Of a DNA stretch of 42,841 bases, positions 10,915 to 35,283 are shown piece by piece. Position 1 is the stretch's first letter, and each line of letters starts with the position of its first letter. Position numbers and translations under genes: made by a program. Under the pieces are notes generated by a model that worked only from the letters and a program-made list of their open reading frames with translations, ran no database searches and had not been told where the DNA came from. The DNA is from Holophagae bacterium (lineage in GTDB: Bacteria; Acidobacteriota; Thermoanaerobaculia; Thermoanaerobaculales; Sulfomarinibacteraceae), in the NCBI GenBank assembly GCA_003105185.1, contig PQAJ01000132.1, forward strand, positions 29,383-72,223, written 5' to 3'.

Positions 10915-12108
10915 TCAGGCGGACTCGCGATGCGCTGCCGACTCCGGCCACGGCGGCAGCAGCCTGATCAGCACCGCCAGGATCACGAAGGGCAGGACCA
11001 TGAGCAGGATGGCCGGCAGCAGGCCTTCACGGGTGGCGAAGTCCATCTTGTAGACCGTGTACCCGAGGAAGGACTTTGAGAACAGCTGGCCGCCGATCAC
11101 CACGTTCCAGCGCATGGCGAAGATCCCGACCATCGTCAGCACGCCCGCGGTCGCATACAGGCCCTTGCGCGCCCGGTCGCTCAGACGGGCCAACTGGGTC
11201 AGCGCCAGCAGAGCGAGAGGCAGCAGGGTGCCAATGATGATCTGGAGCAGGATCTGCGAGCCGAACAGCCGGGTCTTGACCATGAAGTCGAGGCTCTTGA
11301 ACGACTCGTCGGCCACATAGATGCGGTGCACCAGGTCGAGCATCTCGAGGCTGAAGTCGATCACGAACGCGTAGAAGAGATAGCGGGCCACGGTGTCGAG
11401 GCAGCGCATGTCGATGGCCGTGCGCCGGACCCACGACACGAGCATGTACAGCAGCAGGACCAGGGCGATGCCGGACACCATCGCCGAGAACAGGAACACC
11501 ACCGGCATCAGCGGCGTCGACCACCACGGGTTGGCCTTGACCGAGCCGAAGATGAACCCGACGTAACCGTGGAGCAGGAAGGCCGACGGGATGCCGACGA
11601 TGGTGATGAAGCGTCCAACACGGTCGTCGATCGCCAAAGAGCGGGGGCTTATGTTGTCCGAGCCCAGCGCCATGGCGCGGTAGACCCATTGCAGGACCCC
11701 GGTCTGGGACCGCGCCTGGAGCACGATGTCGCGGCGATAGTCGAGCCAGATCTCGACAATCAGCACGACCATCAGGTACCACAGGTAGACGAAGCCGAAC
11801 ATGGCCATCGCCGACGTGGTGTGCGGCGTCAGGTACATCTCGAACGACCGCTCGGGATGGCCGAGGTGGAGCTGCAGCGGCAGTGGAGCCACGAGCAGGA
11901 AGGCGAGGGCGGTGAGCAGCGAGAGCCGGTAGGTCGGACGCACCTCCTCGACCTTGAAGACCCGCTCGAGGGAAGCCAGGATGAAAGCGCCTGCGACCAA
12001 ACCCGTGATGAACGGATAGAGGACGATCAGCACGCTCCACTGGAGCTCGACCTCGTTGGGATACATGAAGCCCTCGACCTGGCTGAGCAGCGCGGTGTCG
12101 ACCCCCAT
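10915..12108 (-). CDS. NrfD/PsrC-type integral membrane quinone-interacting subunit
   Basis: 397 residues, eight to ten hydrophobic helices. NrfD-family landmarks are VLYPFITGLVAGAFILAS near the N-terminus, LHLGHPERSFEMYLTPHTTS in the second loop and LLLYMLVSWVRRT later. In the family this subunit anchors a periplasmic ferredoxin and exchanges electrons and protons with menaquinol. It is the last gene of a three-gene unit, nine bases downstream of the ferredoxin gene. No molybdopterin catalytic subunit is encoded beside it, so the complex may simply link quinone to cytochrome c or serve a partner encoded elsewhere. Confidence 0.85.
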   Translation of the reverse strand: MGVDTALLSQVEGFMYPNEVELQWSVLIVLYPFITGLVAGAFILASLERVFKVEEVRPTYRLSLLTALAFLLVAPLPLQLHLGHPERSFEMYLTPHTTSAMAMFGFVYLWYLMVVLIVEIWLDYRRDIVLQARSQTGVLQWVYRAMALGSDNISPRSLAIDDRVGRFITIVGIPSAFLLHGYVGFIFGSVKANPWWSTPLMPVVFLFSAMVSGIALVLLLYMLVSWVRRTAIDMRCLDTVARYLFYAFVIDFSLEMLDLVHRIYVADESFKSLDFMVKTRLFGSQILLQIIIGTLLPLALLALTQLARLSDRARKGLYATAGVLTMVGIFAMRWNVVIGGQLFSKSFLGYTVYKMDFATREGLLPAILLMVLPFVILAVLIRLLPPWPESAAHRESA

Positions 12109-12117
12109 CGCCTCCCC

Positions 12118-12885
12118 CTAACGCACCGACCCGTCGAGGTCGGCATAGTAGACCTTCGCTCCGGTCGCCATCTGTGGCTTGAGGACATGGATGGTGTGCT
12201 CGCGCAGGAAAGCGTGGATCCGGTCGGAAGGATTCTTGAGATCGCCGAGGACCCTCGCGTCGGTAGGGCAGACCTCGCAGCAGGCGGTGGTCAGGCCCTT
12301 GGTGATGCGGTGGTAGCAGAACGTACACTTGTCCACCGTGCGGGTCCGAGGGTCGATGAACCGACAGCCGTACGGGCAGGCCTGCACGCAGTAGCGGCAG
12401 CCCAGACAGTAGGTCTTGTCGACCAGCACGACACCATCCGGGCTGTCGAACGTGGCACCGACCGGGCAGACCTGGACACACGGCGAGTGGGCGCAGTGAT
12501 TGCACAGCTTGGGGACATAGAAGTTCTTGGAGCCGTCACCCGGGCGGTAGAGCTCCTTGAAACCGTCGAAACCGCCGTCGGGTGAATCGACGACCGGTCG
12601 GTCGACGTCGCCCTCCGGCAGGTGGTACCGCTCGACCCAAGTCCGGAAAAAGAACGGCTCGCGCGGCACGTCGTTCTCCGCCTTGCACGCCCGCACACAG
12701 TTGCCGCAGCCGATGCAGCGATCGATGTCGATCGTCATCGCCCACCAGTGGTCGTCGAGGACGTAGCCGGGCGCCTGCTCAGCTGCACCGGCGAGCACAT
12801 ACTTGAGCGCGCCGGAAGCAGCAGCTGAAGCGATGAGGAGCACCCTGCCGCCGCCGATCAGGAACTCGCGCCGGTCGGTGACCAT
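12118..12885 (-). CDS. Tat-exported multi-[4Fe-4S] ferredoxin-like subunit (NrfC/HybA/DsrO type)
   Basis: 255 residues from ATG 12885, which has AGGAGGG six bases upstream and puts a twin-arginine signal right at the N-terminus (TDRREFLIGGG, Arg5-Arg6, then a hydrophobic stretch ending near residue 34). A longer in-frame start would overlap the upstream cytochrome gene. Cysteine clusters occur in order: CIGCGNCVRACK, CNHCAHSPCVQVCP, CLGCRYCVQACPYGC and CTFCYHRI...CCEVCP, enough for four [4Fe-4S] centres. Acts in the periplasm as electron wire between the tetrahaem cytochrome and NrfD. Its start lies two bases after the cytochrome stop. Confidence 0.9.
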   Translation of the reverse strand: MVTDRREFLIGGGRVLLIASAAASGALKYVLAGAAEQAPGYVLDDHWWAMTIDIDRCIGCGNCVRACKAENDVPREPFFFRTWVERYHLPEGDVDRPVVDSPDGGFDGFKELYRPGDGSKNFYVPKLCNHCAHSPCVQVCPVGATFDSPDGVVLVDKTYCLGCRYCVQACPYGCRFIDPRTRTVDKCTFCYHRITKGLTTACCEVCPTDARVLGDLKNPSDRIHAFLREHTIHVLKPQMATGAKVYYADLDGSVR

Positions 12886-12887
12886 GA

Positions 12888-13364
12888 TCAGCCCTCCTCG
12901 AGACGTGGTGAGTGCGGGAGGTGGCAGGTGTCGCAGGGCTCGTTGTCGGCGTGCTCGGTCGGATCCACTTGTGGGAACGTGGCAGGTTTCGCCATCGCCG
13001 GCAAATGGCATTTCAGGCAAACGGTGCCCGGGTTCGGCAGCTCCGGGGCCTGGGCGGAAGGGTCATCGGCGTGCGCGGCGAGCGGGCCGTGGCAGGCCTC
13101 GCAGCGGACCTTCTCGTGGCCGCCGCCCGCGCGTGAGTTCACGACGTCGTCGTGGCAGTCGCTGCACGCAGCTGCGCCGGCGTGAGCCAGCGGCCGCTGC
13201 CGATTGTCGTCGAGGGCTCCGGCTCGGAAGTGGCCGTACACGCCAAAGTCGTCCGGCACCAACATCGCCCGCACCACGATGAACAGCGCGAAGCCGACGA
13301 CGAAAATCGCAACCAGCCGCAACAGGTGCTCGAAGTCCCTGAAGTCGTGCGCCACGATCGTCAC
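12888..13364 (-). CDS. Membrane-anchored tetrahaem cytochrome c
   Basis: 158 residues with one N-terminal membrane helix (about 13-36) and no cleavage site, so an anchored periplasmic protein. Four haem c motifs are visible: CSDCH (67-71), CEACH (88-92), CLKCH (116-120) and CDTCH (144-148). Additional His residues (for example His61, His98, His138) could serve as second axial ligands. It is the first gene of the cytochrome-ferredoxin-NrfD unit. It recalls the small cytochromes of NrfD-containing respiratory complexes, and electron exchange with the ferredoxin subunit is likely. Direction of electron flow is unknown. Confidence 0.85.
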   Translation of the reverse strand: MTIVAHDFRDFEHLLRLVAIFVVGFALFIVVRAMLVPDDFGVYGHFRAGALDDNRQRPLAHAGAAACSDCHDDVVNSRAGGGHEKVRCEACHGPLAAHADDPSAQAPELPNPGTVCLKCHLPAMAKPATFPQVDPTEHADNEPCDTCHLPHSPRLEEG

Positions 13365-15061: not shown

Positions 15062-15793
15062 TCAGGGCTGCGACTGAAGTCGCTCCAGGGCCGGACGGCA
15101 CTGCGGGTTGGCGCGCAGGGCGGCCTGCCAGTCGCGCTCGGCGGCCGCCTGATTCCCCGCCTTGTCGTGGGCGACAGCCCGCAGCAGGCGAGCCGACTCG
15201 AGCCCTGGATCGAGCTCCAGCGCGCGGTCGAGCCGGCGCAGTGCCTCCGCCACGTCGCCCCCCTGCTGAGGCTCGGCAAACAGGTACGGCTTGGCCGAGC
15301 TGACCCACGCCCTGGCATTGCTCTCGTCGAGCTCGAGCGCCCGTCCGACAGCGGTCAGGAACTCCTGCTCGTACTTCTTGGCCCTGAAGTCGGAGCGGAT
15401 CATGGTCGCGATGAGGTCGGCGCGGATGCGCTGCAGCTCGGATGTCTCCGGCAGGCCATCGAGCACGTGCAGGCCCTCCTCGGCGGCCGCGTCGATGCGC
15501 AGGCCCAGCAGCCGCCGCCGCTCGGCCTCGCCCTGAGGGAACCCCTCGAACTCGATGCGCAACAGCTCGGCGACCGCCAAAGCGGCCCGCGCGTGGAGCT
15601 CGCCGAGCTGCGGGAAGTCGGCGGATGCCCGCGCCACCCGCGCCTCGGACAGCACCACCGTGGCCGCGGACGTGTCGTAGCTGCGCACGGCATCGTCGAG
15701 CGCCCGGGTGAGCGACGGCAGATCCCGCGGCTGCCCGGCCACCGCGACCGTCGCGGATACGACCAGGACGACGACGGCGCGGAACAGGGTCAT
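15062..15793 (-). CDS. Exported TPR-repeat protein, last gene of the lipid operon
   Basis: 243 residues. A signal peptide is evident (residues 1-19, ending AVAG). The rest is helical, with TPR-like units in the second half: ARAWVSSAKPYLF, ALRRLDRALELDPGLESARL and AERDWQAALRANPQCRPALERL. The start overlaps the MMPL stop as ATGA, so it is translated with the exporter. A periplasmic scaffold or adaptor for the exporter is plausible but inferred. No enzymatic motif is present. Confidence 0.72.
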   Translation of the reverse strand: MTLFRAVVVLVVSATVAVAGQPRDLPSLTRALDDAVRSYDTSAATVVLSEARVARASADFPQLGELHARAALAVAELLRIEFEGFPQGEAERRRLLGLRIDAAAEEGLHVLDGLPETSELQRIRADLIATMIRSDFRAKKYEQEFLTAVGRALELDESNARAWVSSAKPYLFAEPQQGGDVAEALRRLDRALELDPGLESARLLRAVAHDKAGNQAAAERDWQAALRANPQCRPALERLQSQP

Positions 15794-17952
15794 GGCGTGT
15801 CCTCCGTCGCGGTCAGCAGCGCCGGCCCCATCCAGAGGTCGGCCGCCAGCCCGATCAACATCGCAGACCCGACCAGAAACCCGAACTCCCGGATCGGGAC
15901 GAACGCCGACAGGCAGAGCGAGAAGAAGCCGATGCAGGTGGTGGCCGTGGTCACCACCATCGCCGCTCCGACCTGGTCCACGGCGCGCCCTGCCGCCAGC
16001 CGGCGTGATCCGCCCAGCCAGCGCTCGCGCCGGAAGTCGGTCAGCAGGTGGATGTTGTTATCGACCGAGATCCCCAGGGTCACACTCGCCACCATCACGG
16101 TCGCTGCGTCGAGCGGAATGCCGGCCACCGCCATCAACGCGAAGATCACGATCACCGGCAGCACGTTCGGCGGCAATGACAGCAGCCCCAGGCGCCACGA
16201 CCGCAGTCCGAACGCGATCACGACGAAGATCACCACGCAGGCGAAGCCCAGCGAGCGCAGCTGCGAGGAAACCAGGTCCTGCTGGGCCTCGACCAGGCGC
16301 AGCACCATCCCGGTGACCCAGCCATTGACGCCGCCCGGCAGCTGCGCCAGGGCCTGCCGGGTCGCCGCCACCAGCTCGAGGAAGCTGCCCTCGTCCATCT
16401 CGTTGACGATCGCGGACAGGCGCAGCGTCCGCCCATCGCCGGTCACCAGCCGGTCCACCAGCTGCCGTCCGCGCCCGTCGAGCGCGGCGACCAGGTCCTC
16501 GGCTTCCTCCCGGGACGCGGGCAGCGCGTAATCGCTGGGGCCGAAGCCTCGCTGCCACTGCCGAAGCTTGCGCAGCAGGTCGAGCGGGCTCACCACCTTC
16601 GCGACCACCGGCGACGCCTCCAGGCGCGCCTGCAGACCGTCCACCACCGGCCACACCCGCGGATCGGTCCACGGCACGTCAGTCTGGATCACCACCTCGA
16701 GCGAGTAGAAGCCGGCGATCTTCGCTCCGGTCGATCGGTAGGCGCGCGTCACCTCGTGACCGGACGGCAGGAAGGCCAGCGGATTCGACGCCACCCGAAT
16801 GCGCGGGATCATTGCCGCGGCGACCACCGTCACCAGCGCCGCCACGGCCAGCACCAGGCGCGGCCGTCGCAGCACCGTGCGGGCGCTCCATTGCGCACCG
16901 GCCCGGGCCACCGACCGGCGCGCGGGCACGCGCAGCAGCCGGATCAGCTCCGGTCCCAGCACCAGGTTGACCGGCAGCGAGAGAGCCAGCCCGAGGGCAG
17001 CGAACAGGCCCACCTCGCGCACCGGCGCCATGTCCGCGGTCACCAGCGACAGGAAGCCGAGCGCTGTCGTCAAGGTGGCCAGGGTGCCTGGAAGGGTGGC
17101 ATCAGCCACCGCCTCGCTGACCGCGTCGTCCACGGAGTGCTGCTCGTGCAGCCGCTGGTAGCGCTGGAGGACGTGGACGCTGTTCCCCAGCGCGAGCACC
17201 CAGAGCAGCGACGGCAGCGCCGACGACATCATGTGGAGCTCGCGTCCGGTCACCTCCATCAGGCCGAGCGTGAGCAGCACGGTGGCCCCGGAGCACGCGG
17301 CGGCCACCGCCATCCCACGCCACGATCGCACGAGCAACGCCAGCACCAGCATCGAGGCCACCAGCGCCGCCGGGAAGGTGCGCAGCGCTTCCCGTCGTGA
17401 CAGCTCGTCGAGCGCATCGACTAAGACCGTGGAGCCCACCAGCTCGACCGAGAACCCCTGCGCTTCAAGCGGCGCGACCGCCCGCCGAAGATCGCTGACA
17501 ATGCGGTGTCGGGCCTGGGGCTCGGCGACCGGGTCCACCTCCACCAGCATCGCGGTGACCTTTGAATCGCCGGACAGCAGCAGCCCCCGGTAGAACGGGG
17601 TCGACGTCGCCTCAGCCTCGAGCGCCTCGGGATCCTCGCCGCCGTAGAGGTCGCGGTAGACGGCGGCCAGGCTGTCGACCCGGGTGACGCCCGGCACCGC
17701 CTCGAGCCGCTCCTGAGCCGCGACCATGGCGTCGAGGACCTCGGCGTCAAACAGCGGGACGCCGCTGAGCGCCACCACCACGAACTCGTCGCTGCCGAAC
17801 TGCTCGCGGAACTCGTGGTAGCGCTTCGCCTCCGCGGGATCGGTGTCGACCCACCGCTCGAGGCGGTTGTCCACTCGCATCCGGCTCGCGGCGACGGCCG
17901 CAGCAGCGGTCAGCGCGACCAGCGCGACCGCGACCGCGCGCCGCCAGCTCAT
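15790..17952 (-). CDS. RND/MMPL-family exporter
   Basis: 720 residues from ATG 17952, which overlaps the upstream stop as ATGA; a start eight codons earlier is possible but breaks this arrangement. Twelve membrane helices in two sets of six with two large periplasmic loops (about 35-195 and 425-580), the RND duplicated layout. Typical pieces are FREQFGSDEFVVVAL after the first helix, LPSLLWVLALGNSVHVLQRY in the first bundle and VTLGISVDNNIHLLTDFRRE in the second. MMPL and HpnN-type members export lipids across the cell envelope using the proton gradient. Its place in the acyl-ligase operon implies export of that lipid product. Confidence 0.86.
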   Translation of the reverse strand: MSWRRAVAVALVALTAAAAVAASRMRVDNRLERWVDTDPAEAKRYHEFREQFGSDEFVVVALSGVPLFDAEVLDAMVAAQERLEAVPGVTRVDSLAAVYRDLYGGEDPEALEAEATSTPFYRGLLLSGDSKVTAMLVEVDPVAEPQARHRIVSDLRRAVAPLEAQGFSVELVGSTVLVDALDELSRREALRTFPAALVASMLVLALLVRSWRGMAVAAACSGATVLLTLGLMEVTGRELHMMSSALPSLLWVLALGNSVHVLQRYQRLHEQHSVDDAVSEAVADATLPGTLATLTTALGFLSLVTADMAPVREVGLFAALGLALSLPVNLVLGPELIRLLRVPARRSVARAGAQWSARTVLRRPRLVLAVAALVTVVAAAMIPRIRVASNPLAFLPSGHEVTRAYRSTGAKIAGFYSLEVVIQTDVPWTDPRVWPVVDGLQARLEASPVVAKVVSPLDLLRKLRQWQRGFGPSDYALPASREEAEDLVAALDGRGRQLVDRLVTGDGRTLRLSAIVNEMDEGSFLELVAATRQALAQLPGGVNGWVTGMVLRLVEAQQDLVSSQLRSLGFACVVIFVVIAFGLRSWRLGLLSLPPNVLPVIVIFALMAVAGIPLDAATVMVASVTLGISVDNNIHLLTDFRRERWLGGSRRLAAGRAVDQVGAAMVVTTATTCIGFFSLCLSAFVPIREFGFLVGSAMLIGLAADLWMGPALLTATEDTP

Positions 17953-19052
17953 CGGCTGACTCCCAGCAGCTGCCATGAAAGCCGCAACACCGCACTGCCA
18001 GCCGCGACCGGCGTGCCGCGCCGGACAGCCAGGAATCTGTGAAACAGATCCGGCCGGGCGGCGAGGCCGGCGATCACCCGTCGCCGCAGCCCCGGCCGTC
18101 GCTCCAGCAGCTGAACCAGGCGATTCAACCGCGCCGGCGTCCGCACCAGACGGGCCTGCGCGCCCCGATAGCGACCGAGGTTGCCGGCGGCGACCGCCTC
18201 GATGAGCGCTTCGGCCGACTGGAGGGCGAGCGCGACCCCTTCACCAGTGATCGGGTCGAGGCAGCACGCAGCGTCGCCGACCAGCGCCACCCGTCCGGCG
18301 GCAACCCTCCTGGCGGCCGCCCCAAATGGTCCGGCCCCGGCGTCGCGCGATGCCAACGGCGCGCCGGCGACCTGCGCGGCGAGGCCCGGCAGCCTCGACA
18401 GCAGGCCGTCGAAGCCCCCAGCCTTGCCGCTCCACATCAGCACCACCCCGACCAGCTCCGGCGCGACCGGGGTGACATAGGCCTCGCAGCCGTCGCCCCA
18501 ATGCACCTCGACCCGATCGGTCCACGGTGCCATGCGGTAATGGCGTCGCACCCCGAAGCGGCCGGCGCGGGGCGGCCGGCACTCGATCCCGGCCCACCGC
18601 CGCACCCGCGAGGCGCGTCCATCCGCGCCGACGACGACGCTCCCCCTCAGCTCGCCGCCCGTGGTGGCTACGCCCTGGTCCGTCAGCCCGCTGACCTCGG
18701 TTCCCCAGAGCAGGTCGGTGCCCAGCGCCGCCGCCCGGTCAACGAGAGCACGGTGCAGCACCGGCCGGCGGATGCCGATGCCCGGTCGGCCGTCGAACAG
18801 CCCCTCGGCGACCGCGTCGCTGTCGAGATATCGAATCCCTCGGAAGGGCTGCTGCTGGTCCCCGGGCACCTGCACGCCCAGTGCCTCGAGTTGGGCCACT
18901 CCCTCGGGCATCACACCCTCGCCGCAGGGACGGTCGATCGGCGGCCGCGATCGGTCGAGCACCGCGACGCTCAGACCAGCCATGCGGCCGCGGATCGCGG
19001 TGGCGAGGCCTGCCGGACCTCCGCCGACGATGATGAGGTCACGATCGCTCAT
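17949..19052 (-). CDS. FAD-dependent oxidoreductase, geranylgeranyl-reductase/aromatic hydroxylase-like
   Basis: 367 residues from ATG 19052; upstream in-frame sequence belongs to the overlapping ligase. FAD motifs: IIVGGGPAGLATAI at the N-terminus (GGGPAG 10-15), VVVGADGRASRVRRWAG in the middle and VALVGDAACCLDPITGEGVA near residue 270. CGEGVMPEGV after residue 50 is typical of geranylgeranyl-reductase-like flavoproteins; the family also contains flavin hydroxylases. In known alkylresorcinol clusters a flavin monooxygenase (SrsC) oxidises the ring, so ring oxidation or chain reduction are both possible here. It overlaps the ligase by 14 bases and the exporter by 4. Confidence 0.82.
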   Translation of the reverse strand: MSDRDLIIVGGGPAGLATAIRGRMAGLSVAVLDRSRPPIDRPCGEGVMPEGVAQLEALGVQVPGDQQQPFRGIRYLDSDAVAEGLFDGRPGIGIRRPVLHRALVDRAAALGTDLLWGTEVSGLTDQGVATTGGELRGSVVVGADGRASRVRRWAGIECRPPRAGRFGVRRHYRMAPWTDRVEVHWGDGCEAYVTPVAPELVGVVLMWSGKAGGFDGLLSRLPGLAAQVAGAPLASRDAGAGPFGAAARRVAAGRVALVGDAACCLDPITGEGVALALQSAEALIEAVAAGNLGRYRGAQARLVRTPARLNRLVQLLERRPGLRRRVIAGLAARPDLFHRFLAVRRGTPVAAGSAVLRLSWQLLGVSR

Positions 19053-20802
19053 CGGGCTCCAGCTGCAGCCTCGCGAAAGCGAGGCGCGAGCGGGCGGCGG
19101 CGGCGAGCACGCGCAGCGGGGTGACGGCAGCCGGCGGATCGAGCTCGCGTGCGAGCCACCGGCGCAGCGTCTCGGCCCGCCGCAGCTTGCCGGACGAGGT
19201 TCGGGGGAGAGTCCCCGGCGCGAGCACCTCGACCCGGTCGGGGTGGAGGCCGGCCGCGGCCCGCACCGCGGCGGCGCACTCGCTCGCGATCTGCGGGTAG
19301 GCGTCCAACGCCACGTCGCGCCGCGCCTCCACGAGCAGCAGCAGGCGCTCGCCGGTGTCACCCTCGGGCAGCCAGGACACGGCAACCGCACACCCCGCAC
19401 GGACGCCCGCAACCGAGCCCGCCGCGTCCTCCACCTCGTGCGGCGAGTGGTTGCGGCCACGCAGGATCAGGACGTCCTTGGCGCGACCGGTGAGGAACAG
19501 CACCCCGTCGTGCAGGAATCCCAGATCTCCTGTCTCGAGCCACCCGTCGCGCAGCACCGCGGCGGTCGCTTCGGGTTGATCGAGGTAGCCCTCCATCAAC
19601 GACGGACCGTGCACGAGCAGGCGCCCGACCTGGCCCGTCCCCAGCTCGCGGCCGTCGTCGTCGACGATCCGCAGCGCGAAGTCGGGCAGCGGCCGCCCGA
19701 GCGCCACCAACTCGACGCCGTCTGCCGCCACCACCGCGCGCCCCTCCCGCGCCAGTCGCTCGCGGTCGAAGCGGCGGCTGGCAAAAGGGGCCTCGACGTC
19801 CGAGAAGGTCACCGCGAGTGCGGCCTCCGACAGCCCGTACACCGGGGTCATGGCCGACGGGCGGAAGCCCCAGGCGGCGAAGCGCTCGCAGAACCCCCGC
19901 AGCACGCGCGGCGCCACCGGCTCGGCACCGTTGAGCGCGACCCTCCAGCACGAGAGGTCGACCCCGTCCAGCTCGTTGTCGCGGATCTTGTCGAGGCACA
20001 GGCCGTACGCGAAGTTGGGCGCCGGCGAGATCGTCGCGCGGTAGTGCGAGATCGTCCGCAGCCAGACCGCGGGCCTGGCCACGAACAGCTCGGGCGGGAT
20101 CAGCGTCACGGTCCCCGGGTGCTCGAGCGCCGGCAGCACGCAACCGATCAGGCCCATGTCGTGGTAGAGCGGCAGCCAGCTCACGCCGCTGTCCACGGTC
20201 CGGCCCTCGGGCTGCGGCCAAAAGCTCTTGAGCCGCAGCGTCTGCGCCACCACCGCCCGATGGCTCAGCGCAACCGGCTTGGGGTCGACGGTCGTGCCGG
20301 AGGAGAACTGGACGAGTGCGAGATCGTCCGGAGTGACGTCCTCGGGCCGCGCCGTCGCCTCCGGGACCTCGTCGAGCGCGACGCACCCGAGTGGCGGCCT
20401 CGCGGCCGCCACCGCCGGTCCCAACAACCGACGCACCCGGCGGTCGGTGACGACGAGGCGCGCGCGCACCAGCTCGAGCATGCGCGCGGTCCGCTCCGCG
20501 TACTCGTCGAGACGGCCGAGGCGCACCGGCGGGTACAGCGGCACCGGCACCGCCCCCGCCAGCAAAACACCGAGGAAGGCGTCGAAGAACTCGATCGATG
20601 TCGGCAGCACCAGGGCGACGCGGTCGCCGGCAGCCACCCCCGACGCCTGCAGCCGGCCGCACGCGCCCAGCGCCCGCGATTGGACCAGCGGCCACGGGAA
20701 CCACTCCGCGCGCTCTGCGGCGTCGACGAAGCGCAGGCCGACGTCACCGTGCCGCGCGGCGCGTTCGAGCAGCTCAGCCAGCGTCGTCAGGTCGCCGTGC
20801 AA
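19039..20802 (-). CDS. Fatty-acyl-AMP ligase (FAAL-like, ANL superfamily)
   Basis: 587 residues from a TTG start at 20802, supported by GGGGAGG four bases upstream. The adenylation core is shown by FSSGTTVDPKPVALSH (166-181), WLPLYHDMGLIG (209-220, characteristic of FAALs), YGLSEAA and GWLETGDLGFL, and the late lysine in TSSGKLRR (Lys539). A segment around 340-365 sits where FAALs carry their insertion. FAALs activate a fatty acid as acyl-AMP and pass it to an ACP rather than CoA. The gene overlaps the ACP gene by 29 bases, which fits that pairing closely. Confidence 0.88.
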   Translation of the reverse strand: MHGDLTTLAELLERAARHGDVGLRFVDAAERAEWFPWPLVQSRALGACGRLQASGVAAGDRVALVLPTSIEFFDAFLGVLLAGAVPVPLYPPVRLGRLDEYAERTARMLELVRARLVVTDRRVRRLLGPAVAAARPPLGCVALDEVPEATARPEDVTPDDLALVQFSSGTTVDPKPVALSHRAVVAQTLRLKSFWPQPEGRTVDSGVSWLPLYHDMGLIGCVLPALEHPGTVTLIPPELFVARPAVWLRTISHYRATISPAPNFAYGLCLDKIRDNELDGVDLSCWRVALNGAEPVAPRVLRGFCERFAAWGFRPSAMTPVYGLSEAALAVTFSDVEAPFASRRFDRERLAREGRAVVAADGVELVALGRPLPDFALRIVDDDGRELGTGQVGRLLVHGPSLMEGYLDQPEATAAVLRDGWLETGDLGFLHDGVLFLTGRAKDVLILRGRNHSPHEVEDAAGSVAGVRAGCAVAVSWLPEGDTGERLLLLVEARRDVALDAYPQIASECAAAVRAAAGLHPDRVEVLAPGTLPRTSSGKLRRAETLRRWLARELDPPAAVTPLRVLAAAARSRLAFARLQLEPDERS

Positions 20803-21040
20803 GCTGCCTCCCCACCTCTGCCACCAGGTCGCCGACGGTCTCGACCCGCGCCTCGCTCGACGGGTCGAGGCAGACCCGGAAGCGGTTCTCCACCTCGACC
20901 GCCAGGGTCAGGATCTTGATCGAGTCCAGCTCGAGGTCCTCCGCGAGCAGCATTTCCGGACGCAGCTCTCCCTCGAAGCCGAGGTGCTGGCGCGCCACCT
21001 CGCGGATGCCGTCGAGGATCTCGCGGTCGTCCACAGTCAT
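20774..21040 (-). CDS. Acyl carrier protein
   Basis: 88 residues from ATG 21040. The phosphopantetheine site is DLELDSIKIL with Ser40, in the usual helix-2 position. The rest, including LAVEVENRFRVCL and VETVGDLVAEV, matches the four-helix ACP fold. It lies between the first ICMT gene (ATGA overlap) and the ligase gene (29-base overlap), so it is a dedicated carrier for the ligase and not the housekeeping AcpP. Probably holds the activated fatty acid that primes the polyketide synthase. Confidence 0.9.
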   Translation of the reverse strand: MTVDDREILDGIREVARQHLGFEGELRPEMLLAEDLELDSIKILTLAVEVENRFRVCLDPSSEARVETVGDLVAEVGRQLARRPDDAG

Positions 21041-21579
21041 TCGCTCACGCGTCCGGGCACGCCGCTCCACTTTGCAAGCGCGGCGTCCTCGACCCGGATC
21101 CGCTCCCGCAGCAGCATACCGTTGAGCACGCTGAAGGCAACAGCGGTGATCCACGCCGCGTGGATGAGCGGCAGGGCGGCCACCTCGACGGCGACCGCGA
21201 GGTAGTTGGGGTGGCGGAGCAGCCGGTAGGGACCGCTGGTCACGGGGAGCGAGCCCGGCACCACCAGCACCCGGGTGGTCCAGCGCGGCCCGAGGGCGGC
21301 CACCGTCCACGCGCGCAGGCCCATGGCGCAGGCCATCGCCAGCAGCATCGCCGCTCCCAGTGCTGGAATCCACGGCGTGCGCAGGCACCACACCTCGGCG
21401 ACACAGGCGATCAGAAACGCCGTGTGCAGCGCCACCATCCAGGGATACGCCGCCGATCCCTCCTCGACCCCGCCGGCAGCGCGCAGCGCGGTATCGTTGC
21501 GATGCGCCAAACCGAGCTCCGCCACGCGCTCTGCCGCGACGAGGCCGATCAGGATCGTGTAGGCCGTCCGGCTATCCAT
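21037..21579 (-). CDS. ICMT-family membrane methyltransferase (SrsB/BpsB-like), copy 1
   Basis: 180 residues with about five hydrophobic segments. The catalytic C-terminal block of the isoprenylcysteine carboxyl methyltransferase family is present: LPVTSGPYRLLRHPNYLAVA, with the conserved RHPNY. The family uses SAM at the membrane. Members beside type III polyketide synthases (SrsB, BpsB) O-methylate alkylresorcinols or alkylpyrones, which fits this locus. It is a paralogue of the gene at 22492 and both begin MDSR. It is the first gene of the tight operon down to 15062 and 49 bases downstream of the YceI gene. Confidence 0.85.
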   Translation of the reverse strand: MDSRTAYTILIGLVAAERVAELGLAHRNDTALRAAGGVEEGSAAYPWMVALHTAFLIACVAEVWCLRTPWIPALGAAMLLAMACAMGLRAWTVAALGPRWTTRVLVVPGSLPVTSGPYRLLRHPNYLAVAVEVAALPLIHAAWITAVAFSVLNGMLLRERIRVEDAALAKWSGVPGRVSE

Positions 21580-21628
21580 GAAGGCGTCGCCTACCGATGC
21601 AGGATGACCGCCGGCCGCCCGCCTGACG

Positions 21629-22198
21629 TCATGGCGAGAGCCTGCCTTCGATGTCGAGCGCCACCTTCACTTCCTTGGCCACCCGCAGCACCAGCACACT
21701 GGGGTCCTTCATGCCCCACTCCACGTACGGGATCGGCAGCTCGGCGATGGCGTGCACACGGTCACCCTCGCGGGTGACCCGAGCAGCCAAGGTGAGCGGA
21801 TGGCTGGCACCGTGCACAGTGACCGCGCCTTCGAGCTCGATCTGCCCCTCCCCCGTGCTGGGGACCTCGCCACTCATCCGCTCGGGAACGAAGACGATCT
21901 CCGGGAAGAGCTCGCTCTCGAGCACCTTGCGGTGCATCTTCTGGTCACGGTCGGCATTCCCGGTCTCGGTGCGCCGGGCATCCAGAACCACCTCGCCGGA
22001 AGCCCTCCCGGTGGCCGGGTCGAACTGGATCTCACCCCTGGTCAACGTCAGCCGGCCGTCGACCGTGTGCAGCGTGCTCTTGAGCGTGAACGAGGCCCGG
22101 CTTGTCGCCGGCTCGATCCGCAGCGTTCGTTTCTCCGCCGATGCCGAGCTCGCCAACGCCAACGCGGTCAACAGAATCGGAACCCACACTCTCCTCAT
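21629..22198 (-). CDS. YceI-family periplasmic lipid-binding protein
   Basis: 189 residues with a clear signal peptide (1-21, ending ASSASA). The mature part has the YceI lipocalin-like pattern: RIEPATSRASFTLKSTLHTV, GEIQFDPATGRASGEVVLDA, RDQKMHRKVLESELFPEI, and GAVTVHGASHPLTL. YceI proteins bind polyisoprenoids and similar lipids in a beta-barrel. ATG 22198 follows AGGAGA. Lying between two ICMT genes in a lipid locus, it could carry the product or an isoprenoid substrate across the periplasm; that link is inferred. Confidence 0.87.
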   Translation of the reverse strand: MRRVWVPILLTALALASSASAEKRTLRIEPATSRASFTLKSTLHTVDGRLTLTRGEIQFDPATGRASGEVVLDARRTETGNADRDQKMHRKVLESELFPEIVFVPERMSGEVPSTGEGQIELEGAVTVHGASHPLTLAARVTREGDRVHAIAELPIPYVEWGMKDPSVLVLRVAKEVKVALDIEGRLSP

Positions 22199-22491
22199 GA
22201 CGATCTCCTGCGTTCAGTCGAACATCCCCGCGCATCGGTCGACCGCGGTGTCACAACGAAGCACTCGCACTCCGACGATCGGTCCAGCCACGCGGAGCAA
22301 GAACCATGCCATACATACCTGCTAGGGAATATCGTCATATGGCGCTGGCCGGTAGTCGACCGGCCAGCTCGCGTCCGGGCCAGATTGGCGTTCAGCCGCG
22401 CCAGAAGGACCCCGGCGGCCGCCTGGCCCCACCATCATCGTGCAGCCATCGCGAGCTCAGGGAGACGCTCACCGGCGGGCTTTCGCACGAG
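22199..22491. other. Intergenic region with AT-richer island and a perfect hairpin
   Basis: 293 bases between the YceI start and the ICMT-2 stop. An AT-richer island at about 22303-22340 probably holds the YceI promoter, but I cannot name a convincing -10/-35 pair. A perfect inverted repeat follows at 22344-22368. No gene is supported. Confidence 0.5.
22344..22368. other. Perfect 10-bp inverted repeat with 5-base loop
   Basis: GCTGGCCGGT, loop AGTCG, then ACCGGCCAGC. The stem is very stable, but no T-run follows on either strand. It lies 124 bases past the ICMT-2 stop and 146 bases before the YceI start, so it could be a processing or termination hairpin or an operator. Confidence 0.5.
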
Positions 22492-23016
22492 TCAGCCCAG
22501 CGCGGCGGTTTCGACCGCGATCCGGCGCCGCAGCAACAGCCCGTTGGCGATCGAGACCAGCACCGCGGTGAGCCAGGCGGTGTGCACCATCGGCAGCGCG
22601 AGGAGCTCGAGCACCACGCCCAGGTAGTTCGGATGGCGCAGCAGGCGGAACGGACCGGTCGTCACCAGGGGTTCACCCGGTACCACGATGACGCGCGTGC
22701 TCCAGCGCGCCCCGAGAGTGCGGATCGTCCAGTAGCGCAGCCCCAGGCCGGTGGCGAACAGGCCCAGCATCGGCAGGCCGAGGCCCGCAAACCACGGACG
22801 GTCGAGCAGCCACACCTCGAGCGGGCAGCCGACGAAGAATGACACGTGCAGGAACACGATCCAGGGGTAGTGATTGGCGCCCACTTCGACCCCGCCCCGC
22901 GCCTTCAACTCCGCGACGTGTCGGCTCGAGATCCGCAGCTCGATGAGCCGCATGAGCGCGACCAGTGCCACCAACAGCGTGTACGGCACTCGGCTGTCCA
23001 TGTCCAAGGCTGGCAT
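22492..23016 (-). CDS. ICMT-family membrane methyltransferase, copy 2
   Basis: 174 residues from ATG 23016, preceded by GAGG at eight bases. A GTG at 23037 is rejected because it touches the -10 box; ATG 23001 (MDSR, aligned with the start of copy 1) is the alternative. Four to five membrane segments and the family block TTGPFRLLRHPNYLGVV with RHPNY. Clearly paralogous to the gene at 21037 (matching MDSR.-YT, GARWSTRVIVVPG and HPNYL regions). Expected to methylate a lipid hydroxyl or carboxyl at the membrane with SAM. It lies between the polyketide synthase and YceI genes. Confidence 0.83.
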   Translation of the reverse strand: MPALDMDSRVPYTLLVALVALMRLIELRISSRHVAELKARGGVEVGANHYPWIVFLHVSFFVGCPLEVWLLDRPWFAGLGLPMLGLFATGLGLRYWTIRTLGARWSTRVIVVPGEPLVTTGPFRLLRHPNYLGVVLELLALPMVHTAWLTAVLVSIANGLLLRRRIAVETAALG

Positions 23017-23037
23017 CGTCTCGACCTCGGGCTGCAC

Positions 23038-23043
23038 ATCATA
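23038..23043 (-). promoter_or_regulatory. Candidate -10 box (TATGAT) for ICMT-2
   Basis: CTCTATGATG on the minus strand, 22 bases before ATG 23016. It implies ICMT-2 can be transcribed apart from the polyketide synthase gene. Confidence 0.42.
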
Positions 23044-23081
23044 GAGGCTAGGGATGAGGGGTCAGGCCCCACCCGCCCGGA

Positions 23082-23120
23082 CTTGTCACGGCGTGGTCCG
23101 TAGGACGAAGCCGGATCCGT
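23082..23120 (+). repeat. Dispersed 39-bp repeat B, copy 2, with adjoining hexamer tract
   Basis: Same orientation as 5224-5262, 34 of 39 identical. It runs on into TCCCGTGCCCGTTCCCGT-type hexamers up to about 23145, as copy 1 does. It lies downstream of the polyketide synthase stop (minus strand). Confidence 0.8.
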
Positions 23121-23173
23121 TCCCGTGCCCGTTCCCGTCCCCGGACCGAGGAGTCCCTCCGTTTTCGAGCCCG

Positions 23174-24226
23174 CTACCACCGCAGCAGCACCAGCTCCGA
23201 GCAGAAGCCGGGCCCCATGGCGACCATCAGGCCCCAGGTGCCCGGCGCCAGGTCGCGGCGCTCCATCACGTCCTTCAGCACCAGCAGGACCGAGGTCGAC
23301 GAGAGGTTCCCGACCTCGCGCAAGGTGCGCCACGAAGCCTCCAGGGCATCGTCGGGAAGCTCGAGCGCCTCCTCCATCGCCTCCAGGACCTTGGGTCCCC
23401 CGGGGTGCGAGATCCAGACCCCGATGTCCGATCGCGTCAGCTCGTGCTCGGCGAGGAAACCGTCGACGTCCCGTGGCAGAAATCTCCGAGCCACCTCGGG
23501 CACCTCAGCGGACAGCACGATCTGGAACCCGGCCTCGGTGATGTCCCATCCCATGAGGCGCTCCGAGTCCGGATAGAAGATGGACCGTGAGGCCACGATC
23601 TCGGGCCCGCGCGACGCCCGTCCCGAGCCGACCAGGATCGCCGCCGCAGCGCCGTCACCGAACAGCCCGGAGCCGATCAGGTTCGGGATCGACAGGTCAC
23701 GCCGCTGCAAGGTCAGCGAGCACAGCTCCACCGACAGCACGACGGCCGCCTCGTCAGGCACGCCGTGGAGCAGGTCGGCCGCGCGCGCCACACCGGCCGC
23801 ACCGCCCACGCAGCCGAGGCCGAACACCGGCACCCGCCGTACCCGCGACGGCAGGCGCAGCCGGTTCATCAGGCGGGCATCGATCGACGGCGTCGCCACA
23901 CCGGTCACGGTGACGAAGACGAAGACCCCGACATCGTCGGTGGCAAGCCCCGCCGATTCGAGGCCGTCACGGACCGCCAGCTCGCCGACCTGCTGCGCAA
24001 CGGCGATCCAGGCATCGTTCGCTTGTCCCCACGTCTGAAGGCCCGGGTACGCCTCCATCGGCAGCGCCAAATAGCGGCCGCCGACGAGCACGTTGCGGTG
24101 AAGGGTGTCCAGCCGATCGAGGTTGTACAGGCGGTCCGCCCAATGCCGGCGAAATGCGGCCAGCAGGGTGTCCTGGTCGTAGTAGTTCGGTGGAAACGCC
24201 GATCCGACGGCCGCGATGCGCATCAT
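23174..24226 (-). CDS. Type III polyketide synthase (chalcone/alkylpyrone synthase-like)
   Basis: 350 residues from ATG 24226; GTG 24247 is possible but the GGAG and GGAGG just before the ATG pair favour the later start. The thiolase-fold triad is clear: Cys139 in FGLGCVGGAAG, His274 in WISHPGGPK and Asn307 in VGNLSSTS. A GFGPG-like end, MGPGF, lies near the C-terminus. Such enzymes extend acyl starters with malonyl-CoA into alkylpyrones, alkylresorcinols or tetrahydroxynaphthalene. The nearby acyl ligase, ACP and ICMT methyltransferases favour a long-chain lipid product. It is 59 bases downstream of a TPR gene on the same strand. Confidence 0.92.
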   Translation of the reverse strand: MMRIAAVGSAFPPNYYDQDTLLAAFRRHWADRLYNLDRLDTLHRNVLVGGRYLALPMEAYPGLQTWGQANDAWIAVAQQVGELAVRDGLESAGLATDDVGVFVFVTVTGVATPSIDARLMNRLRLPSRVRRVPVFGLGCVGGAAGVARAADLLHGVPDEAAVVLSVELCSLTLQRRDLSIPNLIGSGLFGDGAAAAILVGSGRASRGPEIVASRSIFYPDSERLMGWDITEAGFQIVLSAEVPEVARRFLPRDVDGFLAEHELTRSDIGVWISHPGGPKVLEAMEEALELPDDALEASWRTLREVGNLSSTSVLLVLKDVMERRDLAPGTWGLMVAMGPGFCSELVLLRW

Positions 24227-26763: not shown

Positions 26764-27252
26764 TCAGTCCGGCGGCGCGAGCTGCGCGGCCAGCTCGCCG
26801 TGCAGCCGGCGCGCGACCTCGCGCACCGCCTTGGCCACTGCCGGCGACAGCTGCTCGCGGAACGAGAGGACGTCGGCGGCCTCGATGCCGACCACCCGCA
26901 CCTCATCCGGCATCGCGAGGCCGGCGCGCCGGCCGACCTCGAGCGCGGTCGTGAGGTCGACCTCGTGGCTGCCGACCAGCCGCGCGCTGCCGGCGATTCC
27001 TCGGGCGTCGAGCTCGTGGACGCGGCCTGGGACCGGGTCCTCGCGGACCACTGCATCGACGAGGACCGCACGGTCGAAACCGTCCACCAGGTTGAGCAGC
27101 TCGAGGCCCCCGCGATAGCTGCGCGTCACGGTCACGCCGGCGACCGGCTGCACGGCCAGCAGCCGCTCCAACTCGTCCGCCACCGCCAACCCGGCGGCGT
27201 CGTCGCCGAGCAAAGGGTTGCCGAGCCCGACAACCACGACCCGCGGCGCCAC
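26764..27252 (-). CDS. [NiFe] hydrogenase maturation endopeptidase (HyaD/HycI type)
   Basis: 162 residues if GTG 27252 is used. The GGAGG just before it leaves no spacer, so the start is uncertain. Family motifs are VVVVGLGNPLLGDDAAGLAVAD at the N-terminus, with the Ni-sensing acidic residue in GDD, and GSHEVDLTTAL in the middle. The enzyme removes the C-terminal peptide of the large subunit after nickel insertion. The substrate is almost certainly the MvhA of this operon, whose DPCYGCATH motif is followed by 33 residues. It is the last gene of the operon, eight bases after the HdrC-like gene. Confidence 0.87.
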   Translation of the reverse strand: MAPRVVVVGLGNPLLGDDAAGLAVADELERLLAVQPVAGVTVTRSYRGGLELLNLVDGFDRAVLVDAVVREDPVPGRVHELDARGIAGSARLVGSHEVDLTTALEVGRRAGLAMPDEVRVVGIEAADVLSFREQLSPAVAKAVREVARRLHGELAAQLAPPD

Positions 27253-27260
27253 CTCCGGTC

Positions 27261-28433
27261 TCAGGCCGCGACCGCCTGCGGTGCCGCCGCCTCCACCCGC
27301 GCCCGCGCTCCTGCCTCGCGCACCGCCACCAGGTAGGCCGCCACCGGCCGCAGCACCAGGTGCTGCCACTTGCCGAACGGCACCTCGACGACCAGCATCG
27401 GCACCGCGATCATCAGGTGTGCAACGTAGGCGACGTAGGTCGGCCACGGCAGGTCGAAGAGCCGGAACACGTGGAGCAGGATGCCCGACAGGGCGGTCAG
27501 GAAGAGCAGGATGAGGAACAGCCAGTCGGTGACGTGGGAGAAGGCGTGGTACGGATCCGCCTTCTTGAGCCGGCCGCGGATCGCGATCACGGTCAGCGCC
27601 ATCAGGGCCACGGTGCCGTAGTAGCCGAAAAGGGCGGTCCAGTGGAAGTCCGCGCCGTCGCGCTGGAACCAGGGCAGGAAGGCCACCACCAGCAGGAACA
27701 TGGTGGCGTAGCCGCTGACCAGCAGGAAGTGGCGCAGCCAGGGGCCGCGCGTGTCCCGGTCGCAGGCAAGCCAGCGCTTCTGGGTCACGCCGTGGATCAG
27801 CAGCTGCGGCAGCTGCTGCAACCACACCGCGAGCGGGGCTTGCGGCGCGTGCTCGCCGCGCATCACGAAGCGCATCATGCGGAATGCGGCCAGGCCGAGC
27901 ATCACGAGCAGCCCGAACGCGAGGATCAGGTCGCCAATGTGGATGACGTCCTTGGGAGCGAACAGGTCGAGCCGGACGTGCTCGAGCGCGTCGCCCTGCA
28001 CCGCCGAGAAGCCGAATGGCGCGCCGAGCAGCCCGGGCACCACGAACAGCGCGAGCACGATCAGCGCGACCCCCACCAGCATGCCGACCTCCCAGCGGGT
28101 CGAGGTATAGAGGCGGCGGGCCAGGCCGGTCACGTCGTAGCGGGTCATCAGCCAGCGGCGGAGCGACATCATCAGCTCGCCCGGGTGCGCCTCGCGCGGG
28201 CAGGTCTCGGAGCAGGTGCCGCAGTAGTAGCACATCCAGGGCTCGGGGCTCTCCTCGATCCGCCGGTCGAGCCCGAGCTGGAGGTAGCGGATGATCTTGC
28301 GCGGGAACACGGTGTCGCCCTCGGAGAGGGCGCACACCGCGGTGCAGTTGCCGCAGTTGAAGCACTTGTTCACCGTCGAGCCGCCGAACTCGGCGAGCTC
28401 CTCGGACAGGCCGGGGTTGAGTCGGTAGCTCAT
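27261..28433 (-). CDS. HdrC-cytochrome b fusion (QmoC/HdrC-NarI-like membrane subunit)
   Basis: 390 residues from ATG 28433, sharing one base with the upstream stop (TGATG). The N-terminal HdrC domain has two cluster motifs, CFNCGNCTAVC (24-34) and CYYCGTCSETC (68-78). From about residue 115 six membrane helices follow, with His in FSHVTDW, LLHVFRLF and VAHLMI as candidate haem b ligands, like NarI/HdrE. This architecture is that of QmoC, which passes electrons between a soluble Hdr-like complex and menaquinone. It replaces the usual HdrB/HdrC pair. Presence of haem is inferred. Confidence 0.85.
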   Translation of the reverse strand: MSYRLNPGLSEELAEFGGSTVNKCFNCGNCTAVCALSEGDTVFPRKIIRYLQLGLDRRIEESPEPWMCYYCGTCSETCPREAHPGELMMSLRRWLMTRYDVTGLARRLYTSTRWEVGMLVGVALIVLALFVVPGLLGAPFGFSAVQGDALEHVRLDLFAPKDVIHIGDLILAFGLLVMLGLAAFRMMRFVMRGEHAPQAPLAVWLQQLPQLLIHGVTQKRWLACDRDTRGPWLRHFLLVSGYATMFLLVVAFLPWFQRDGADFHWTALFGYYGTVALMALTVIAIRGRLKKADPYHAFSHVTDWLFLILLFLTALSGILLHVFRLFDLPWPTYVAYVAHLMIAVPMLVVEVPFGKWQHLVLRPVAAYLVAVREAGARARVEAAAPQAVAA

Positions 28434-28738
28434 CACTCGCTCCCCTTCAGCGCATAGCGCACGTAGTCGCCGGCCTCTCCGGCCTCGACCACCTCGCCGT
28501 AGCGCCGCATCGCCATCAAGTGCCAGAGCACGTCCGGAGTGGGCAGCTCACACTGCGCGCCCAACTCGGGCACCGTGCGCGGCCCTCCCGCGAGCGCGCT
28601 GCGCAGCGCCTTGCGGATCCTCCCCTGCTCCTTGACGGAGGCCTGCAGCTCCTTGCTGACGCCGCCCATCCGATCGCGCAGGATCTCGATCGGCCGCGGG
28701 GGCTTCTCGGCCTTGCCGGTGGTCTTCGTCTCGCCCAT
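28433..28738 (-). CDS. Small winged-helix-like protein inside the Hdr operon
   Basis: 101 residues from ATG 28738. Residues 1-40 are charged and Lys/Arg-rich. Residues about 41-95 read like a small winged helix: RIRKALRSALAGGPRTVPEL, ELPTPDVLWHLMAMRRYGEV, then a short beta-wing region. There are no cysteines or membrane segments. It lies between the short HdrA gene (17-base gap) and the HdrC fusion (one-base overlap), so it is cotranslated with the electron-transfer subunits. It may be a regulator or a structural adaptor of the complex. Function unknown. Confidence 0.65.
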   Translation of the reverse strand: MGETKTTGKAEKPPRPIEILRDRMGGVSKELQASVKEQGRIRKALRSALAGGPRTVPELGAQCELPTPDVLWHLMAMRRYGEVVEAGEAGDYVRYALKGSE

Positions 28739-28755
28739 GCTTTCCTCCCGGCGGC

Positions 28756-30078
28756 TCAGTGCGCAGCGGCGGCCGCGGCAGGCGCCCGATGCCAGCCGAT
28801 GCGCTGCAGGCGGCCGGCTGCCGCCATGGCTGCCTCGCCGGCCTCGACGATCGCGTCCGGAATGTCCTTGGGGCCCGCGGCCACGCCGGCCACGTAGACG
28901 CCCACAAGGGTCGTGTACGACGGGTTGATCTTGGCCTCGGGGGTGGCCATGAAGCCGTCGTCGGCCTCGGCGCATGCGACCACGCCGTGCGCGTGCCAGG
29001 CCGGCACCAGCCCCTGCGCGAGCACCACCAGGTCGTAGCGGTGCTCCTCGACTCGGCCGCCCTCGTCCAGCAACTCGACGCGCACCACAACGTCGTTGTT
29101 TTCGACCTCGTTGATGGTCGCGACCTTGCCCTTGATCACCCGTACGCCCTCGTTCATCGTCCGCCGGTAGAACTGCTCGTAGCCCTTCCCGAACGCCCGG
29201 ATGTCCATGTGGTAGAGCGTGACTTCGACGTCGTGGATGTAGTGGCGCAGCAGCAGCGCCTGCTTGAGGGCGTACATGCAGCACACCCGCGAGCAGTAGG
29301 GAATGCCGATCGAGCGGTCGCGGCTGCCCGCGCACTGCACGTAGGCGATCTTGCGTGGGATCTTGCCGTCCGATGGCCGCAGCACGCGGCCGTACGGGCC
29401 GTTCGACGACTGCACCCGCTCCATGGCCAGCGGGTTCATGACGTTGAGGAAGCGGCCGCCGCCGTACTCCGGCTTCTTCCCCATCGGCGTGATGTCGAGC
29501 CCGGTCGCGACGATCACGGCGCCGACCCGGGTTTCCACCATTTCGGGCTCCTGGTCGAAGACGATGCACTCGGTCGGGCAGACCTTTTCGCACTTGCCGC
29601 AGAAGATGCAGTGCTCGACGTCGAGCACCGCCTTCTGCGGGATCGCGTTGCCGTGCGGGATGTAGATCGCGCGGCGCGCGCCCAGGCACTGGTCGAACTC
29701 GTGGGGGACATCGACCGGACAGACCAGCTCACACTTGGAGCAGCCGATGCAGGTGTCCTCGTCGACGTAGCGCGCTTTCCTCTCGATGCGAGCGACGAAG
29801 CCATCGCCCTCCGGCTCCACCTGGCGCACCTCGGCCCAGGTCTGGACCTGGATGTGGGCGTGGTGTGAGGACTCCGCCATCCGCGGCGTGCAGATGCAGC
29901 TCGAGCAATCGAGGGTCGGGAAGACCTTGTTGAGGCCGACCATGATGCCGCCGATCGACGCGTACTTCTCGATCAGCAGCACGTCGTAGCCCTGCTCGCC
30001 GAGGTCGAGGGCGGCCTGCATGCCGGTGATCCCGCCGCCGATCACCAGCGCGTCGTAGCGCGTGCGAATGTCAGCCAT
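28756..30078 (-). CDS. Short HdrA-like FAD/iron-sulfur protein
   Basis: 440 residues from ATG 30078, which has GGGGGAG five bases upstream; it overlaps the MvhA stop by eight bases. Order of motifs: FAD-binding VIGGGITGMQAALDL (GGGITGM 14-20), the HdrA-specific FPTLDCSSCICTPRM (53-67), then two inserted ferredoxin clusters CIGCSKCELVC (110-120) and CIFCGKCEKVC (157-167), then CSRVCCMYALKQA. The N-terminal domain and C-terminal ferredoxins of full HdrA are absent. HdrA carries the flavin that joins hydrogenase and Hdr modules. This copy keeps exactly the inserted clusters that the long HdrA of the operon lacks. Confidence 0.88.
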   Translation of the reverse strand: MADIRTRYDALVIGGGITGMQAALDLGEQGYDVLLIEKYASIGGIMVGLNKVFPTLDCSSCICTPRMAESSHHAHIQVQTWAEVRQVEPEGDGFVARIERKARYVDEDTCIGCSKCELVCPVDVPHEFDQCLGARRAIYIPHGNAIPQKAVLDVEHCIFCGKCEKVCPTECIVFDQEPEMVETRVGAVIVATGLDITPMGKKPEYGGGRFLNVMNPLAMERVQSSNGPYGRVLRPSDGKIPRKIAYVQCAGSRDRSIGIPYCSRVCCMYALKQALLLRHYIHDVEVTLYHMDIRAFGKGYEQFYRRTMNEGVRVIKGKVATINEVENNDVVVRVELLDEGGRVEEHRYDLVVLAQGLVPAWHAHGVVACAEADDGFMATPEAKINPSYTTLVGVYVAGVAAGPKDIPDAIVEAGEAAMAAAGRLQRIGWHRAPAAAAAAH

Positions 30079-31597: not shown

Positions 31598-31607
31598 CAC
31601 GCCTCCC

Positions 31608-33079: not shown

Positions 33080-33095
33080 GGTTCGCTCCTTCCCG

Positions 33096-35102: not shown

Positions 35103-35254
35103 ATCCTCGGCTCCTTGTGAAGGGAAGAAAGGCCCTCGACGCCTCCGCTGCGCGTCCGGCCGATGCCGGCGTCCGGCAGCCCCGCGATCAACCGCACACC
35201 CACTATCCCCCACCTCCGGCCGATCCCGCACGAGCGCCCACGAGGGTCTCGGCA

Positions 35255-35283
35255 AGTATGCCGCGGCGTGTCAGAGGTGTCAA
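35255..35283 (-). promoter_or_regulatory. Sigma-70-type promoter of the Hdr-Mvh operon
   Basis: On the minus strand TTGACA (35278-35283) and CATACT (35255-35260) are separated by exactly 17 bases. This is the best -35/-10 pair in the window. Expected transcription start near 35248, leaving a leader of roughly 146 bases before the HdrA ATG. Confidence 0.65.

Follow-up and report, generated by a model that had tools for sequence, protein, structure and literature searches.

A probable ftp-type phenolic-lipid operon with its own fatty acyl-AMP ligase and acyl carrier protein in an acidobacterial genome

Introduction

How is a type III polyketide synthase (PKS) supplied with its starter, and what does it make, when its gene lies beside genes for a fatty acyl-AMP ligase (FAAL), an acyl carrier protein (ACP), methyltransferases, a flavoprotein and putative lipid-handling proteins? 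We address this for a 42,841-nucleotide stretch (here, the window) of a Holophagae bacterium (GenBank assembly GCA_003105185.1, contig PQAJ01000132.1, positions 29,383 to 72,223). The window (G+C content, 70%) is part of contig C132 of the 4.24-Mb assembly G000, and its nearest relatives in the named collection are metagenome-assembled genomes of Thermoanaerobaculales, Acidobacteriota. Here, we report the gene content, conservation and linkage of the locus, the clade and catalytic residues of the PKS, and the identity of the ligase. The locus is probably a phenolic-lipid operon of the kind named ftp in Myxococcus xanthus, primed through the FAAL and ACP and yielding an alkylresorcylate or alkylquinone.

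A conserved operon

The genes run on the minus strand in the order type III PKS, ICMT, YceI, ICMT, ACP, FAAL, flavin adenine dinucleotide (FAD) oxidoreductase, MMPL and periplasmic TPR protein. All families named in a preliminary description of this DNA were present on that strand (Pfam, NCBIfam). The five core genes are as follows (window positions):

23174-24226, minus strand: type III PKS, Pks11/CylI-like, of the FtpA-type clade (Pfam Chal_sti_synt_N/C, PDB matches, tree)
22492-23037, minus strand: ICMT-family methyltransferase 1 (ICMT1; Pfam ICMT, E = 1.1e-22, alignment and tree)
20774-21040, minus strand: ACP with an LDS phosphopantetheine site (Pfam PP-binding, above cut-off)
19039-20802, minus strand: FAAL with a TTG start (NCBIfam and PDB matches)
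17949-19052, minus strand: FAD-dependent oxidoreductase with a p-hydroxybenzoate hydroxylase (PHBH) fold, resembling geranylgeranyl reductase (GGR) or UbiH (Pfam FAD_binding_3, AlphaFold2 [AF2], Foldseek)

PKS and FAAL were searched separately in 60 related genomes. Clear PKS orthologues (57-74% identity) were found in 20, and a FAAL orthologue in the same 20 and, as one weak match (41% identity), elsewhere; a FAAL orthologue therefore accompanies 20/20 PKS-bearing relatives versus 1/40 lacking the PKS (Fisher p = 5e-15, indicative only, because the genomes compared are related). The order and strand of PKS-ICMT-ACP-FAAL-(FAD) were kept in the 20 relatives or broken only by a contig end. The same core order holds for most of 80 further loci of the named collection and recurs in Myxococcus, Corallococcus, Pyxidicoccus, Citreicoccus, Archangium, Rokuibacteriota and Gemmatimonadota. 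FAAL presence needed only three changes on a 93-row PKS tree (54 of the 76 scorable rows were FAAL positive). The preliminary description had named separation of the FAAL operon from the PKS gene in relatives as evidence against itself; because order, strand and co-occurrence are conserved, the two are not unlinked within the FAAL-positive clade. Chance clustering was rejected on the same gene order and PKS/FAAL co-occurrence, and the PKS-ICMT-ACP-FAAL-FAD core is a real conserved operon. Outside it fall the MMPL and TPR genes (present in about six genomes), the second ICMT and the exact place of YceI.

A sister PKS clade, mainly of Terriglobia (loci L092-L139, e.g., L093:9992-12811), has a PKS-FAD-YceI variant, in which FAAL, ACP and ICMT were not found near the PKS. 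The variant loci looked at have a lactonase-like gene and an AcrB-type RND pump upstream.

Probable starter supply

The ligase is a FAAL by its sequence features, its NCBIfam fatty acyl-AMP ligase score of 437 bits lying below the model's own cut-off of 600. Its best PDB matches are FAALs (EcFAAL 3pbk, 305 bits; CoA ligases reach about 110 at most), and it aligns through the insertion region without a large gap. With the numbering offset by one residue, the three pocket positions compared with EcFAAL are T68, P92 and P237 in the window FAAL; the FAAL-specific insertion and the proline-lined alternative pocket are both kept. The phosphopantetheine serine of the ACP (Ser40) was invariant in 12 homologues.

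The overlap between the ACP and FAAL genes is exactly 29 bases long (20774-20802), as the preliminary description had given it. It is plausible as real because a Shine-Dalgarno-like GGGGAGG stands a few bases 5' of the FAAL TTG start. Packing is tight elsewhere, too: ICMT2/ACP and MMPL/TPR show ATGA-type overlaps, FAAL/FAD share 14 bases and FAD/MMPL share 28 bases.

Features outside the core

The remaining features are as follows:

22199-22491, minus strand: intergenic gap of 293 bases with an inverted repeat, a possible operon boundary before YceI
21629-22198, minus strand: YceI-family lipid/isoprenoid-binding protein (Pfam YceI, E = 1.4e-22)
21037-21579, minus strand: ICMT-family methyltransferase 2 (ICMT2; Pfam ICMT, E = 8.5e-25)
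15790-17976, minus strand: MMPL/HAE3-type RND lipid transporter, accessory (Pfam MMPL, E = 4.5e-31; NCBIfam HAE3, 245 bits)
15062-15793, minus strand: TPR protein with a signal peptide, accessory, partner of the MMPL gene (Pfam TPR)

The YceI protein, whose nearest solved relative is TT1927b (1wub), is presumably periplasmic, as a Sec-type signal peptide (MRRVWVPILLTALALASSASA) can be read by eye; that of the TPR protein is likewise readable. YceI lies upstream of the PKS at L037, L039, L041, L043 and L070, between the ICMT genes in the window and after FAD in Terriglobia; the PKS tree requires 10 changes for it. At three loci of one genus (L035, L038 and L040), YceI is outside the operon, on the opposite strand and about 3-4 kb upstream of the PKS.

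MMPL adjoins the cassette only in the window and in genomes G012, G015, G016, G034 and G036. TPR follows it in all cassette-adjacent cases, as it does in G006 and G019 at contig ends; the succession was recorded at L037, L039, L041, L042, L148, L149 and L150. Cassette-bearing genomes were scored as lacking MMPL if they gave no match at E<=1e-60, and by this threshold no orthologue was found in about 14 of the 20 relatives. The upstream matches in Terriglobia were not counted as an MMPL association because they are AcrB-type RND pumps, with the lactonase-like gene between, and not MMPL orthologues. The exporter is thus not conserved with the pathway, and MMPL-TPR is an accessory pair. The export step of the preliminary description, which leaned on this gene, loses ground accordingly.

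It is possible, though we consider it unlikely, that the cassette is a lipid pathway in which MMPL, TPR, YceI and the second ICMT take no part and only lie nearby. The 14/20 genomes lacking MMPL, the MMPL paralogues elsewhere (about 50% identical, at G012:C254 [L146] and G016:C32 [L147]) and the absence of YceI and of the ICMT duplication from most relatives speak for it. Set against these are the placement of YceI beside the PKS in three positions, also in the FAAL-less Terriglobia clade, and of MMPL-TPR directly downstream, overlapping by 28 bases here and adjacent in five other genomes. An isoprenoid-binding protein is also reported from a type III PKS operon of Saltatorellus ferox (PMC10896814).

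At L146 and L147, a distant FAD oxidoreductase (about 23%) comes after the MMPL paralogue, which makes a second MMPL-FAD pairing away from the PKS locus.

Quinone-linked redox genes flank the operon, with synteny that is not generally conserved. On one side (window 10915-13020) are NrfD and 4Fe-4S subunits, and on the other (26764-35255) Fe-S/Hdr-like proteins, a NiFe hydrogenase-type protein with a small subunit, and a HycI-type maturation protease.

Predicted ring formation and tailoring

Against solved structures, the PKS scored 339 bits with Mycobacterium tuberculosis Pks11, 231 with cyanobacterial CylI, 157 with actinobacterial tetrahydroxynaphthalene synthase (THNS) and about 120 or less with plant chalcone synthases. 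The catalytic residues Cys140-His275-Asn308 (numbering of alignment A1) were invariant in the 20 orthologues; two deposited Pks11 chains differ Cys to Ser, at the residue that aligns with Cys140. The tree groups the PKS with FAAL-positive loci, including Myxococcus (about 57-61% identity), and away from THNS, chalcone synthases and Pks18, with an SH-aLRT of 86 for the large clade that holds the window PKS and the Myxococcus rows. Long reference branches and a quickly built tree keep us from any claim on finer placement. By these comparisons, the PKS is assigned to the long-chain alkylresorcinol/pyrone class.

Trp228 (alignment A1) is likewise invariant in the 20 orthologues. A Trp at this position is reported in the resorcinol formers FtpA, SrsA, PKS10, PKS11 and ArsB (PMC5916927), and its loss in the ArsB W281 mutant switches the product to pyrones (PMC6274091). 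The residue was matched via Pks11 and the MGWD motif context, not via an ArsB alignment.

Another, distant type III PKS (31% identity) lies in the same genome at G000:C78:8310-9344 (L057), with relatives in G001 and G016; it scores closest to Pks11, THNS and Pks18, and no FAAL cassette was found at its locus.

Both ICMT proteins retain the family core, the C terminus of ICMT1 being a few residues shorter than that of ICMT2. ICMT1 probably acts on the phenolic or resorcylic product; SrsB of Streptomyces griseus is, by the title of its paper, a decarboxylative O-methyltransferase of alkylresorcylic acid. Alignment and tree did not show a lineage-specific tandem duplication, each copy having a different nearest relative.

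The AF2 model of the FAD protein (pLDDT, 92.7) has a PHBH fold, common to hydroxylases, halogenases and reductases. Foldseek matched it best to FAD monooxygenases, halogenases and 3nix, an uncharacterised dehydrogenase. By analogy with Srs and Ftp, a ring hydroxylase is the likeliest role; the protein may instead act as a reductase. The halogenase reading (Foldseek PltA, ChlB4) was rejected, as the relevant site appears to read EAYVTPV. Flavin halogenases read WxWxIP there.

Comparison with known systems

The core has precedents. By its title, the paper of Hayashi et al. 2011 (pmid 21815236) reports that FtpA, a type III PKS of M. xanthus, depends on a FAAL to make alkylresorcylic acid; M. xanthus oxidises the FtpA products to alkylquinones according to Milke et al. 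2024 (PMC10896814). The ftp cluster resembles the window in its type III PKS, FAAL and ACP, with a product class of alkylresorcylic acid, then alkylquinone. An MxFAAL-MxACP pair from M. xanthus, under consecutive accessions Q1CXX0 and Q1CXW9, was assayed in an earlier study (eLife 2021, PMC8460268). Use of acyl-ACP by type III PKSs is also on record for Gcs, SCO7671 and ArsB/ArsC (PMC6274091). The preliminary description had taken the combination to be unknown, which does not hold for FtpA with a FAAL, published in 2011, or for acyl-ACP use. Myxococcus-type loci share the PKS-ICMT-ACP-FAAL-FAD order and the PKS clade of the window, but those examined have no YceI, second ICMT, MMPL or TPR.

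SrsABC of S. griseus and the M. smegmatis PKS10 operon resemble the window in combining a type III PKS, a methyltransferase and a flavoprotein, but they use acyl-CoA starters and have three genes, whereas the window has a built-in FAAL-ACP pair. To our knowledge, the Bacillus subtilis BpsAB pair has no FAAL, ACP or flavoprotein. What it shares with the window, by the title of its paper, is a type III PKS with a methyltransferase. The SrsABC and PKS10 operons yield methylated resorcinols and quinones (PMC5916927). The CylA/CylB/CylI cylindrocyclophane pathway of cyanobacteria similarly places a fatty acid on a free-standing ACP, from which the chain is passed on to CylI (PMC8086630); type I PKSs stand between ACP and type III PKS there, unlike in the window, which has no such genes. 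Planctomycetal and hid operons share a methyltransferase-oxidoreductase-type III PKS arrangement, and the S. ferox operon has a PKS with two methyltransferases, a lipoprotein and the lipid/isoprenoid-binding protein mentioned above; in the passages of PMC10896814 consulted, FAAL-ACP is not described for any of these. Among the 12 best literature matches, judged by title and abstract, none was found that puts MMPL and YceI in a cassette with a type III PKS.

Proposed pathway and alternatives

From these observations and precedents, we infer the following reactions, product and transport steps. The FAAL would activate a free long-chain fatty acid to acyl-AMP and load the dedicated ACP, from which the type III PKS would take the acyl chain and add three malonyl (possibly methylmalonyl) units; aldol condensation would then close the ring to give an alkylresorcylic acid or alkylresorcinol. 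O-methylation of the product by an ICMT-type methyltransferase would follow (decarboxylative in the Srs precedent), and the FAD protein would most likely hydroxylate or oxidise the ring towards an alkyl-hydroquinone or -quinone. In the periplasm, YceI would probably bind the lipid; its transport through the envelope would probably fall to the MMPL-TPR pair. The step from FAAL to acyl-ACP is drawn from family identity and precedent, and the later ones are increasingly inferential. Priming from acyl-ACP followed by tailoring, as put forward in the preliminary description, remains the most likely reading, with FAAL-ACP conserved alongside a Pks11/CylI-type PKS, a methyltransferase and a flavoprotein.

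Several points weigh against this reading. Tight packing is broken once, by the 293-base gap between ICMT1 and YceI, which holds a perfect 10-bp inverted repeat (22344-22353/22359-22368, GCTGGCCGGT-N5-ACCGGCCAGC). No T-run terminator was found in this gap, and the repeat may be an operator or a hairpin; two transcripts are possible, and the gap may split the operon. The best curated family for the FAD protein is GGR-like and hydroxylase models fit less well, with both scoring below cut-off; the ring oxidation of the preliminary description depends on this PHBH-fold flavoprotein. Assignment of the Myxococcus loci to ftp was drawn from gene content, not from locus tags. Finally, the ring type is in doubt on two counts: Pks11, which also has Trp228, was deposited as an alpha-pyrone synthase with its solved structure, and PMC12766979 assigns alkylpyrones to a related, conserved type III PKS cluster of myxobacteria.

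The last two observations favour the main rival, in which priming is the same but the PKS makes triketide or tetraketide alkylpyrones that the ICMT O-methylates as in BpsAB, the flavoprotein acting on the chain or ring of the pyrone. Given the invariant Trp tied to resorcinol cyclisation and the FtpA precedent, which yields alkylresorcylic acid, we hold this outcome doubtful. A THNS or DpgA-type synthase using malonyl-CoA only, with FAAL-ACP serving another pathway, is highly improbable and was rejected: DpgA is the best NCBIfam match but reaches 167.7 bits against a cut-off of 425, THNS scores 157 bits versus 339 for Pks11, the tree sets the PKS apart from THNS, as the preliminary description required, and PKS and FAAL strictly co-occur.

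Biological meaning

Returning to the FAAL/ACP-primed phenolic-lipid reading, the core is already known from M. xanthus, so what is new is its acidobacterial breadth, the recurrent YceI and the addition of MMPL-TPR. A speculative extension, to which we give little weight, is that the product is a respiratory or redox lipoquinone in Thermoanaerobaculia, with YceI as its dedicated periplasmic carrier and MMPL-TPR as a clade-specific envelope transporter; for the carrier idea, the YceI pairing recurs in the FAAL-less Terriglobia (PKS-FAD-YceI). The recurrent YceI neighbour suggests a testable role for a large lipid-binding family for which most ligands are guesses. The FAAL-primed type III PKS chemistry of M. 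xanthus would be widespread in Acidobacteriota, Rokuibacteriota and Gemmatimonadota, and with such breadth phenolic or quinone lipids may be common in the envelopes of bacteria that abound in soils and sediments.

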